NCBI GenBank assembly: GCA_027450045.1
Contig: DAIDKM010000002.1
Coordinates: 1 to 64,000, forward strand
Length of the DNA stretch: 64,000 nt
Source: Paludibacter sp.
GTDB taxonomy: Bacteria > Bacteroidota > Bacteroidia > Bacteroidales > Paludibacteraceae
Direction of reading: 5' to 3'
This document shows positions 4,855-55,301 of the stretch, one piece after another. The notes beneath the pieces are model-generated. The model ran no database searches. It saw nothing but the letters and a program-made list of their open reading frames with translations, and was not told the origin of the DNA. The first letter of the stretch is position 1. Each line of letters starts with the position of its first letter. The position numbers were made by a program, and so were the translations under genes.

Positions 4855-5099
4855 AATGTTTATTATTCATTTTATATATGACCAAATTGCGATGAAGCAT
4901 TGGAGGGGATGTGCAGAAAGCAGAAGGTATCTATGCAGGCAAAACGATACAGGCCTTAATACTCTGGATTTTGAATACTTCTTAAGTAACCCAATTTCAG
5001 GATGAGAAAGTCGCAGGCAGCGCGTTATTCCAACCCTTTTTATGCAATCGAAAATAATTGTTCAGGACAAAGAGTGTATGCAGTGTTATTGAAATGAAC

Positions 5100-5107
5100 T
5101 ATCTTTG
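5100..5107 (+). promoter_or_regulatory. -7 box of the RNase P RNA promoter
   Basis: TATCTTTG fits the Bacteroidota -7 consensus and lies 7 nt before the first base of the P1 helix of rnpB at about 5115, exactly where a transcription start is expected. No clear TTTG is seen at -33. Confidence 0.7.
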
Positions 5108-5114
5108 TCGTTAG

Positions 5115-5466
5115 AAAGCAGGTCGGCTTGTCGCTTCGCTCGTCGAAGAGGAAAGTCCGGGCAACGCAGAGCGCCATATTTCCTAACGGGAAGCTGTTCG
5201 CGAGGGCAGAGTAACGTAACAGAAAAGAACCGTCTCGCTTTGGCGGGATAAGGGTGAAAAGGTGGGGTAAGAGCCTACCGGTGCTAATGGCAACATTGGC
5301 AGCCGTACGTCTTATGGGTTGTAAGGCCATGTAAACCAACGATTGAGGATTGCTCGTCCGATGTTGGAGGGTAGGCCGCACGAGGTTGTTGGCAACAACA
5401 ATCCCAGATAAATGACAAGCATTCCGCTTGTCGGAAAACAGAACCCGGCTTATAGACCTGCTTTTT
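5115..5466 (+). ncRNA. rnpB: RNase P RNA (catalytic subunit)
   Basis: Ribozyme that matures the 5' ends of pre-tRNAs with the RnpA protein. The 5' AAAGCAGGTC pairs with 3' GACCTGCTTT as helix P1. The conserved core is recognisable: GAGGAAAGTCCGGGC (CR-I) near 5146-5161, CAGAGTAACG and AGGGTGAAAAGGTGGGGTAAGAGC in the middle, and ACAGAACCCGGCTTATAGACCTGC at the 3' end. The length of about 352 nt is normal for the bacterial A type. T-rich sequence follows P1. Two minus-strand open frames across this gene are antisense artefacts. Confidence 0.96.
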
Positions 5467-5539
5467 ATTATGCACTTATTCGATGCTCAACTATCATAAA
5501 AATTGACTTGCAACCAAACATTTTTGATTCTCAAATCCA

Positions 5540-7141
5540 ATGAAACAATTTCTTTTTTCGCTCTTTTTGTTGTCATTTTTGACTTCTGCTCACGCCCAGT
5601 CACAATTCTCGCTTAACGACAACAGTGCAAAATTAGTTTACACACTCAATGCCATCAATGCTTTATATGTAAGTAAAGTGGATGAGAAAAAGTTAGTTGC
5701 CAGCGCCATCGTCGGGATGTTGAACGACTTGGATCCTCATTCTGTTTACATTCCCAAAGATGAAGTGGAGCAGATGAATGAACCGTTAGAAGGTTCGTTT
5801 GAAGGTGTTGGTATTCAGTTTCAAATGTTGGAAGATACACTTTACGTTGTACAAACCATATCAGGATGCCCTGCAGCAAAAGTTGGCGTGCTCCCAGGCG
5901 ATCGTATCATTTATATACAAGATACGTTGGTTGCAGGCGTCAAAATGCAAAACTCTAACATTATTAAACGACTTCGAGGACCGCATGGTACTATTGTGAA
6001 CGTAAAGATTCTTCGTCGCGGCGTGCCTTCTTTGATTGATTTTAGCATTACACGCGATAAAATACCTCTCTACAGTGTTGATGCCTCATACATGTTAGGT
6101 CCACAAACCGGATATATTAAGATTAACAGCTTTGGAGCTACCACATTCAAAGAATTTCAAGAAGCATTCAATAAGCTGAAAACGCAAGGGATGAAAGATT
6201 TAGTGATTGATTTGCAGGGGAACGGTGGAGGTTATTTGAATGCCGCCATTGATTTAGCCAATGAATTTCTGCAAAAAGGGGAGGAAATTGTTCATACCAA
6301 AGGATTACATCAACCGCGTACTGACAGTTATGCCACCGGTAGCGGCGATTTTGAACATGGAAAGTTGATTGTACTTATTGATGAGTACTCGGCTTCGGCA
6401 AGTGAAATTTTTACGGGCGCCATGCAAGATTGGGACAGAGCTTTAATCGTTGGACGACGTTCTTTTGGAAAGGGTCTTGTACAACGTCCTGTGATGCTGC
6501 CCGATGGCTCCATGTTGCGTTTGACAACTGCTCATTATTACACGCCTTCAGGTCGTTGCATTCAGAAACCTTATTCGGATGGTTTTGTGAAATATGATGA
6601 AGACATTCTGACTCGTTACAAACGTGGTGAATTTCAACATGCCGACAGCATTCATTTTGCTGATTCATTAAAATATAAAACGCTTCGTTTAGGTCGCACG
6701 GTATATGGTGGAGGCGGCATTATGCCTGATGTTTTTGTTCCTTTAGATACGATCACTTTCACCAATTATCTTCGTAATATTATTGCAAAAGGCATTGTAA
6801 ACAAAATCATCATGCAATACATTGATGCCAATCGTGTTCAATTACATAAACAATATCCTGCCTTTGATGGCTTTGTAGCAAACTACACCATTCCCGAAAC
6901 TGTTTTGAAGGACATCATCACCTCAGCGACAGCCGAAAAGATTCCATTCAATGAGAAACAATATCAACTGTCGAAACCACTTTTAGAAGTGCAACTAAAA
7001 GCCCTTATAGCAAACGATTTATGGGATAGAACCGCCTATTATCGGATTATGAATACTGATAATGAAATTGTGCAGAAGGCAATCCGTATTTTGCAACAAC
7101 CAGGAGAATACAATCGTCTATTGAACGCAAAAGGAGATTGA
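5540..7141 (+). CDS. C-terminal processing peptidase, S41 family
   Basis: Periplasmic serine protease of the CtpA/Prc family, 533 aa. A signal peptide (MKQFLFSLFLLSFLTSAHAQ) is followed by the S41 N-terminal region (DPHSVYIPKDE), a PDZ domain (LEGSFEGVGIQFQ to about residue 165) and the protease core. The Ser/Lys dyad is visible at Ser286 in EYSASASE and Lys311 in RRSFGKGLVQ, with the family's usual 25-residue spacing. A C-terminal region of about 150 residues is typical of Bacteroidota members. It stands 73 nt after rnpB and 62 nt before cysE, so co-transcription with cysE is possible. The natural substrate cannot be told from sequence. Confidence 0.94.
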   Translation: MKQFLFSLFLLSFLTSAHAQSQFSLNDNSAKLVYTLNAINALYVSKVDEKKLVASAIVGMLNDLDPHSVYIPKDEVEQMNEPLEGSFEGVGIQFQMLEDTLYVVQTISGCPAAKVGVLPGDRIIYIQDTLVAGVKMQNSNIIKRLRGPHGTIVNVKILRRGVPSLIDFSITRDKIPLYSVDASYMLGPQTGYIKINSFGATTFKEFQEAFNKLKTQGMKDLVIDLQGNGGGYLNAAIDLANEFLQKGEEIVHTKGLHQPRTDSYATGSGDFEHGKLIVLIDEYSASASEIFTGAMQDWDRALIVGRRSFGKGLVQRPVMLPDGSMLRLTTAHYYTPSGRCIQKPYSDGFVKYDEDILTRYKRGEFQHADSIHFADSLKYKTLRLGRTVYGGGGIMPDVFVPLDTITFTNYLRNIIAKGIVNKIIMQYIDANRVQLHKQYPAFDGFVANYTIPETVLKDIITSATAEKIPFNEKQYQLSKPLLEVQLKALIANDLWDRTAYYRIMNTDNEIVQKAIRILQQPGEYNRLLNAKGD

Positions 7142-52779: not shown

Positions 52780-52932
52780 TTGTTTTTGGTGCTTTGTAAG
52801 CTGATATTGGCCAAAACAAGTTTGTTTTGGGATAATGTAACTTTGCATTGGCGAAAAACAACTTACATTAGCCAACATCATGTTAGAATTAACGAGAACA
52901 AGCTTGTTTTGGCGAGATTCACCTTGCAAAAA
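52780..52932 (+). repeat. Degenerate array with a 20.5-bp period, seven units
   Basis: TTGG (or the related TTAG/TTAA) occurs at 52786, 52807, 52827, 52848, 52868, 52889 and 52909, spacings 21, 20, 21, 20, 21, 20. Each is preceded by a related (A/C)TTTG or CTTG block 6 nt earlier, as in AAGTTTGTTTTGG, AACTTTGCATTGG and AAGCTTGTTTTGG. The period equals two DNA turns. Not coding. Confidence 0.7.
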
Positions 52933-53242: not shown

Positions 53243-53890
53243 CTACCTTCGATGCGTATGTGCATCAATAAAAGAGGAAAGATGATCTTTCCCTAAATTG
53301 CTGAACAGCCCATTGGCATTTTTAAGCACTACATGCAATGGGACATACTTTTGCAAAGCAATTTTCCGGTACAACGTTTCAATGGCAACAGCACTTTCGT
53401 CAGTTTCAATGCAAAGACGATCAAAAGGAGTTGCACGAAGCGCATCAGGATTGAATTTAGTTCCATAGGAAAGATAAAAACCCTGATTGAGAAGTGACTG
53501 AGTCAATTCCGGTTTGCCACGAAACCCATGAATCATCCAGGGAACTGAAGGATGAAGCGTTTTGTGCAATGCAATGATTTCCTGCCAATATCTTACACAA
53601 TGAATGAACAACGGTTTTTGAACTTGCTCTGCCAACAAGGCTATTTCTCTTAATACCACTTTTTGCAAGTCAATGTTAGTTGAACACAATTTATCAAGAC
53701 CGGCTTCTCCAATAGCAACAACCAAAGGGTGCGTTGCAAAAAAACGAAGCCTCTCTACAAATTGTTCATAGTTGTCATCTACTTGACAAGGATGAATTCC
53801 TATCGAATAAAACCGATTAGGAATAAATGGTAATTCCCCGTGCAAATCGTCGGGGAACAATTGTACAATATGAATTTCATTTGTTTCCAT
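53243..53890 (-). CDS. TatD-family hydrolase with HxH motif at the C-terminus
   Basis: 215 aa from ATG 53888-53890 (a TTG at 53902 is in frame but overlaps more of the upstream gene). TatD proteins are metal-dependent nucleases/hydrolases with a TIM barrel. The metal ligands are seen in order: Glu62 in AIGEAGLDKL, His97 in LFIHCVRYW, His121 in MIHGFRGK, Asp164 in CIETDES. The first-strand HxH, expected at the very N-terminus, is absent there; the protein starts METNEIHIVQLFPDD. Instead FIDAHTHRR, exactly such a motif, is at the C-terminal end (His211, His213). Overlaps the helicase stop by 14 nt. Confidence 0.88.
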   Translation of the reverse strand: METNEIHIVQLFPDDLHGELPFIPNRFYSIGIHPCQVDDNYEQFVERLRFFATHPLVVAIGEAGLDKLCSTNIDLQKVVLREIALLAEQVQKPLFIHCVRYWQEIIALHKTLHPSVPWMIHGFRGKPELTQSLLNQGFYLSYGTKFNPDALRATPFDRLCIETDESAVAIETLYRKIALQKYVPLHVVLKNANGLFSNLGKDHLSSFIDAHTHRR

Positions 53891-55301
53891 TTGAAAGAGC
53901 AAAAAAATGATCGGGAAAATTGACTAAATAGATCATCTCCGTAGCACGAGTGAAAGCCGTGTAAAGCCAACGGTAATAATCGGCATTCAATTGATCGTCA
54001 GCCATCATGCCCTGATCAATAAACACCGTTTGCCATTGTCCTCCTTGTGCTTTATGACACGTGACGGCATACGCAAATTTAACTTGCAAGGCATTTAAGT
54101 AGGGATTTTGTTGCATCTGTTTTGCCCGTTCACGCCGGTTACCGATTTCAACATAATCTTCGCTCACCGCCTTAAACAACTGTCGATTTATTTCATCCAC
54201 CCGTGCCGGAGAATCGGCTTGCAACGTATCCAACAAAAGACGCGCTTCCATCTCGCACTCATAATCGAGAAAACGGACCAATACATCGACAAAGCGAAAG
54301 CCATACATTTCGTGATGCCGTAAGATTCTCGATACTTCCACAATATCGCCATTGGCAATAAAATCGAGTTCGGCATATGGGTTACTCCAAAAATAGTTAT
54401 TTTTGACCACCATCAACAAATCGCCGGAAGAAATCTCCTCTTCTTTTTGCAACACACGGCCACGAATGCCATTATTGTATAAATTTGCCCGCTTGTTGGA
54501 ACGCGTGATGACAATCGACTCTTCGATACCATTGTGCGAATAAGTAGACTGAATTGTATCGATTAATTCATCGCCTTGCAAGCGTTTTACATCAACAAAC
54601 GAAAGATTAAATTGAGGTGTAGTTGGCCAGACATCGCGATCGACCACCTGACGCAGCAAGGTAGCATTGAACAAAATGCCGCTCTCGATAGCTTGTCGCA
54701 CTACTTGTGTTAATGTAACCTCAGTAACATGCAGTCCATAACTTTCCAACTTACTTGCTTCCAGAGCCGGACTAAAAAATTGCATTACAGGTGGAAGTTG
54801 AGCCGTATCACCCAACAGAATCAAACTGCATCCTTCAGCGCTAAATACAAAATGAAGCAAATCATCGAGCAACTGACCAGAACCAAACAGCATTCCATCG
54901 CCTGCATAGTTGGCAATCATCGAAGCTTCATCCACAATAAACAACGTGTGAGGATGCAGGTTGTTGTCTAAACCAAACGACACATCAGCCGCGGATTTCT
55001 GACGGTAAATATGTTTATGAATCGTTTTTGCCGGTTGTCCCGAGTAATGAGCCAACACTTTGGCGGCACGCCCTGTAGGAGCCAACAACACTACTTTTTG
55101 TTCCAACTTAACAAGCGATTTCACCAAAGCGCTTACCACCGATGTTTTTCCCGTACCTGCGTAACCTTTGAGTAAAAACGTTTTGTCGCGCTGCTGTGAA
55201 ACCAAAAATTTCGACAGTTGTTCAATCAGTAACTGCTGTTGCTCGGTAGGCTCAAACCCCAATTGAACAATGATTTGAGAATAGAGAAAACGATCGATCA
55301 T
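53877..55301 (-). CDS. RecD-like ATP-dependent DNA helicase
   Basis: 474-aa superfamily 1B helicase. Walker A LLKGYAGTGKTSVVSAL, motif II FIVDEASMI, motif III LLGDTAQLPPV, and the C-terminal UvrD_C_2-like part AYAVTCHKAQGGQWQTVFID and RWLYTAFTRATEMIYLV. Members of this short RecD2/Pif1-related group act in DNA repair; no RecB or RecC is near. It has its own TACCTTTG -7 box and overlaps the TatD gene by 14 nt, suggesting coupling. Confidence 0.93.
   Translation of the reverse strand: MIDRFLYSQIIVQLGFEPTEQQQLLIEQLSKFLVSQQRDKTFLLKGYAGTGKTSVVSALVKSLVKLEQKVVLLAPTGRAAKVLAHYSGQPAKTIHKHIYRQKSAADVSFGLDNNLHPHTLFIVDEASMIANYAGDGMLFGSGQLLDDLLHFVFSAEGCSLILLGDTAQLPPVMQFFSPALEASKLESYGLHVTEVTLTQVVRQAIESGILFNATLLRQVVDRDVWPTTPQFNLSFVDVKRLQGDELIDTIQSTYSHNGIEESIVITRSNKRANLYNNGIRGRVLQKEEEISSGDLLMVVKNNYFWSNPYAELDFIANGDIVEVSRILRHHEMYGFRFVDVLVRFLDYECEMEARLLLDTLQADSPARVDEINRQLFKAVSEDYVEIGNRRERAKQMQQNPYLNALQVKFAYAVTCHKAQGGQWQTVFIDQGMMADDQLNADYYRWLYTAFTRATEMIYLVNFPDHFFALSNGNK

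Follow-up and report, generated by a model that had tools for sequence, protein, structure and literature searches.

In silico analysis indicates that the protein encoded by a short TatD gene of the window (the whole 64,000-nucleotide stretch of DNA analysed) very probably arose by natural circular permutation of a Group II (HxH) TatD metal-dependent nuclease, with strand beta1 closing the barrel from the C-terminus. The parent would be a protein of the short HxH-containing (Group II) TatD type of Bacteroidales. In the proposed rearrangement, beta1 of the (beta/alpha)8 barrel, which bears two metal-binding histidines, would have been shifted from the N-terminus to the C-terminus, giving the chain order beta2-beta3-...-beta8-alpha8-beta1. 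The last strand would then occupy the gap between beta8 and beta2, and the permutation would have occurred once, in the stem of the genus. A circular permutation had been suggested in a first-pass annotation of this DNA and is now backed by (i) a doubled-sequence test, (ii) the predicted strand order compared with an unpermuted control, (iii) alignment to solved TatD structures and (iv) conservation throughout the genus. The rearrangement looks real and selectively maintained in an otherwise conserved, small enzyme of the DNA-repair type.

The permuted TatD gene and its product

The protein begins with METNEIHIVQ and ends with SSFIDAHTHRR. Its sole HxH motif is His211-Thr-His213 at the C-terminus, and the N-terminus is free of HxH. 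The first-pass annotation had given the open reading frame and the numbering of Glu62, His97, His121, Asp164, His211 and His213 exactly, and both the missing N-terminal HxH and the C-terminal FIDAHTHRR it described can be seen in the 215-residue frame. The ligands E62, H97, H121 and D164 of the TatD_DNase family occur in that order and do not vary among 40 aligned homologues. The Pfam profile of this family (PF01026) matches the protein at 1.9e-28 with 100 bits, above the family cut-off of 27, which makes it a member; the match is confined to profile positions 55-203 of 253, and the first strand is therefore missing from its usual place. Solved TatDs are matched by the sequence mostly from about residue 58 or later. 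Standard profiles have a blind spot here: to them the permuted protein is simply a TatD truncated at its start. Group II TatDs carry the HxH on the first strand at the N-terminus; in this protein it sits on the last strand, so the protein is classed as derived from Group II TatD by permutation and is not counted among its ordinary members.

An assembly or frameshift artefact might conceal an ordinary N-terminal HxH upstream, and the window genome is indeed split over 177 contigs. The probability of this is negligible, as the upstream DNA encodes a helicase, and the counter-case raised in the first-pass annotation, an HxH upstream in another frame, was looked for in all frames and none was found. 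The identical order also occurs in seven further assemblies, two of which consist of just 2 and 4 contigs, and the artefact is refuted by these relatives.

Table 1. Position of the permuted TatD gene, its key residues and strands, and the neighbouring genes in the window
Feature	Position	Strand	Remarks
S41 peptidase gene, usual neighbour of the family's unpermuted short TatD genes	5540..7141	+	no convincing TatD remnant before the peptidase here
Circularly permuted short TatD gene	53243..53890	-	215 aa; stop codon 53243-53245; PF01026 1.9e-28; order kept in 8/8 genus genomes
Relocated strand beta1, residues 208-213 (IDAHTH)	53252..53269	-	DSSP strand in the AlphaFold2 model; D209, H211 and H213 invariant in the genus
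His213, relocated beta1	53252-53254	-	
His211, relocated beta1	53258-53260	-	
Asp164, metal ligand	53399..53401	-	invariant, 40 homologues
His121, metal ligand	53528..53530	-	invariant, 40 homologues
His97, metal ligand	53600..53602	-	invariant, 40 homologues
Glu62, metal ligand	53705..53707	-	invariant, 40 homologues
Beta2, residues 6-11, now the opening strand of the chain	53858..53875	-	predicted model; corresponds to strand 18-22 of the unpermuted control
RecD/PIF1-like helicase gene, directly upstream of TatD	53877..55301	-	AAA_30, UvrD_C_2 and PIF1 matches; overlaps the TatD start by 14 bases

Doubled-sequence test and phylogeny

A profile built from 37 unpermuted short TatDs is matched by the single-copy permuted proteins from position 13-17 onward. 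When the permuted sequences are doubled, the match begins at position 2 and runs straight across the C-to-N junction, where FIDAHTHRR followed by METNEIHIV is aligned with the consensus lidiHtHkkeseenvlaiv. Doubling adds 10-16 bits in all eight permuted proteins, and the unpermuted controls drop 2-3 bits. An alignment that continues over the joined ends of a doubled sequence is the behaviour of a circular permutant, and at the level of sequence the permuted order is established.

Among the short TatDs, compared over the block from about beta3 on, the eight permuted proteins form one clade (support 97/93); one event thus accounts for all of them, and their single origin is firmly grounded in this comparison. 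The clade falls within a set of short TatDs whose members carry an N-terminal HxH, in keeping with descent from Group II. The moved segment, about 10 of 215 residues, is smaller than the 10-20% of the chain used as a cut-off for permutants in some database screens (PMC2395249). This value is a screening threshold and not a definition, and single-strand moves are also termed circular permutations (PMC2213659).

Conservation in the genus and comparison with unpermuted relatives

The first-pass annotation had proposed a search for close relatives of identical order, and these were found in all eight genus genomes, where every protein ends in [IV]D[AIT]H[TM]H near its C-terminus and lacks HxH at its N-terminus. 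Residues D209, H211 and H213 are invariant columns across the genus although identity to the window protein falls to 46-49%, and their codons vary only synonymously (GAT/GAC, CAT/CAC). The dN/dS of the permuted genes is 0.10-0.27 wherever dS was computable, and by this measure the permuted TatD is under purifying selection. In one species (G005; L008 / L084 3465-4091) the relocated motif reads HMH instead of HTH, with both histidines retained.

Short TatD homologues outside the genus have the opposite arrangement: an N-terminal HxH is found in 43/43, 63-81 residues ahead of the GExGLD strand in every case, and a C-terminal HxH in 0/43. The statement in the first-pass annotation that other Bacteroidota TatDs keep HxH at the N-terminus is true of all these homologues, and its view that chance is unlikely gains from the distribution of the C-terminal [IV]DxH[TM]H (8/8 genus genomes, 0/43 outside). 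The permuted proteins and their unpermuted orthologues of neighbouring genera share about 35-44% identity. No intermediate with HxH at both ends was present among the 51 short TatDs inspected.

The N-terminal strand might instead merely have been lost, leaving a decaying or inactive TatD with a coincidental C-terminal DxHTH; a short gene in which ordinary profiles detect only a truncated TatD would fit this view. It is most improbable, however, given that DxHxH stands at the same place in all eight species (codon changes synonymous, dN/dS 0.1-0.27), that the remaining ligands are all invariant, and that the 10-16 bits gained on doubling fall precisely at the junction in 8/8 cases. A conserved circular permutation remains the preferred reading.

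A C-terminal model of 63 positions, built to catch the permuted arrangement, was used to screen 393 genomes of the order and 395 across the phylum. Within the order it was matched to its end in the window gene alone, other matches stopping at or before position 51; in the phylum 1/395 genomes matched, the window's own. These counts apply to permutants akin to those of the genus, from which the screening models came, and independent TatD permutations in other lineages could be missed. The family search likewise gave the permuted order nowhere outside the genus. Some of its rows extend beyond position 206 only through stop-codon read-through, and the frames of such rows that were inspected (G319 and G373 not among them) each retain the N-terminal HxH. 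An HIH after several stops in G269, the sole such frame, was taken as chance. The short TatD L078 of G269 is unpermuted, with an N-terminal DVHTH and a frame that stops just after the ETDED strand, possibly as a truncated gene.

An ordinary full-length TatD is also present in 7/8 genus genomes. None was found in the sequence of the window genome (98.8% complete), which may reflect an assembly gap; if the absence is real, the permuted protein would be the only TatD of the organism.

Predicted structure and metal site

The AlphaFold2 model, computed for the window protein with 39 relatives, has a mean pLDDT of 94.2 and a pTM of 0.91. The predicted strands comprise residues 6-11, 26-30, 57-66, 94-99, 118-120, 139-142, 159-161 and 208-213 (IDAHTH), the last of which agrees with the strand anticipated at residues 206-215 in the first-pass annotation. 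The relocated strand has a pLDDT of 76-81, below the rest of the model, and its placement is informed by 8 sequences only. In the model of the unpermuted control L010, strand 4-8 (VDIHT) comes first and the seven other strands follow as in the permuted protein, so that the two predicted models show identical strands in rotated order, as expected of a circular permutant.

Structural alignment with VIA-align places residues 1-205 of the permuted model on residues 27-263 of E. coli YcfH (1yix), with Z 23.1 and rmsd 2.2 Å over 203 aligned residues; as the alignment starts at residue 27 of YcfH, the aligned part is without the first strand. Control L010 aligns from residues 1-208 to YcfH 1-261 (Z 25.2). 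For most ordinary TatDs the alignment begins at residues 18-27 with the permuted model and at about residue 1 with the control. Z values of 19-23 against solved TatDs over 197-203 residues assign the permuted model to the TatD fold, and both this fold and the last strand are supported by the prediction. Barrel closure by the last strand is the most likely arrangement in the model, since DSSP strands need hydrogen bonds and only the edges of beta8 and beta2 are free without beta1.

The C-terminal strand could also act in trans, inserting into a neighbouring subunit so that a strand-swapped dimer completes the active site. It follows a less certain linker (residues ~191-210, pLDDT 76-87) and could swap, but the confident single-chain model pairs the strand within one chain, and a swap is unnecessary because in ordinary TatDs the first strand already lies next to the C-terminal helix in the barrel; such an exchange is very unlikely. 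Closure within a single chain is accordingly preferred.

In HxH-bearing Group II TatDs the HxH pair assists in the binding of two metals, and in TATDN3 this pair is contacted by the equivalent aspartate (PMC10085689). His211 and His213 of the permuted protein should accordingly complete an ordinary two-metal site together with Glu62, His97, His121 and Asp164. Because all these residues are retained, the protein most likely shares the Group II metal site and acts as a metal-dependent DNase, the predicted activity being that of a 3'-5' exonuclease or AP endonuclease.

Gene neighbourhood and possible route

The permuted gene follows the RecD/PIF1-like helicase gene in 8/8 genus genomes, and none of the unpermuted TatD loci has such a helicase within about 1.5 kb. 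In the family, 23 unpermuted short TatD genes sit immediately before an S41 peptidase gene. The peptidase is retained in 7/8 genus genomes (~60% identity) and in the window lies 46 kb from the permuted gene. The ancestor of the genus, to judge from the relatives, would have had the TatD-S41 peptidase arrangement. The TatD gene was thus most likely moved as well as permuted, ending up behind the helicase rather than before the peptidase; where both genes share a contig, the apparent move is ~30-125 kb. No convincing fragment of TatD was found before the peptidase in the 7 genomes, tblastn giving one scattered match at 0.001 and the others listed above 0.03. Directly before the peptidase gene of the window lies a bacterial RNase P class A RNA (5115-5468, +; RF00010, 255 bits), and the short open reading frames opposite it, e.g. 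5040-5381, are likely spurious.

Duplication/deletion and cut-and-paste models are among the routes proposed for circular permutation (PMC2395249). When the 3' tails of the eight genes were aligned as DNA with the 5' starts, no consistent remnant of duplicated ends could be separated from noise; four of the eight beat their own null, but in differing AT-rich registers. In G001, G003 and G005 the tail reads DKTIA[IV], which looks like the beginning of beta2 but is too short to count. Permutation and relocation could have been one event, in which the gene left the S41 site as a circle, was re-inserted behind the helicase and was opened elsewhere, a scenario that is rather unlikely. If it were true, the active site would be completed only on translation of the last codons, and activity would be tied to full-length synthesis. 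Degenerate direct and inverted repeats of ~20-25 nt (AACAAG[TC]TTGTTTTGG and related units) occur at 52806-52928, in the intergenic stretch that separates the TatD gene from the outer-membrane receptor gene.

Comparison with known systems

For many textbook circular permutations the proteins compared are only distantly related. The present rearrangement separates orthologues of neighbouring genera, involves a single strand that bears two catalytic ligands, and has been followed by diversification of the permuted form into 8 species. The pair is a clean natural experiment on how TIM-barrel strand order matters for folding, for stability and for completing the active site as translation ends, and on the origin of such rearrangements. 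Among open-licence papers, none was found linking TatD, or Paludibacter, with circular permutation, and no earlier report of a permuted TatD was found there; circular permutation itself is already known, both for TIM barrels (transaldolase and class I aldolase) and as a single-strand move in C2 domains (PMC2213659).

The permuted protein shares the fold, beta2-beta8, the metal ligands and the HxH strand with the short HxH TatDs of Bacteroidales (L010), YcfH, YjjV (1zzm) and TATDN3 (2y1h). In contrast to these proteins, where the HxH strand comes first in the chain, in the permuted TatD it comes last. Like transaldolase with respect to the class I aldolases (PMC2213659), it is a TIM-barrel enzyme related to others through circular permutation; that case involves a shift of two alpha/beta units between very distant proteins, whereas the present one involves one strand and close orthologues. 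As in the C2 domains of phospholipase C delta and synaptotagmin (PMC2213659), a single beta-strand is N-terminal in one protein and C-terminal in the other. However, C2 domains are not barrel enzymes, while the moved strand of the permuted TatD bears two catalytic metal ligands.
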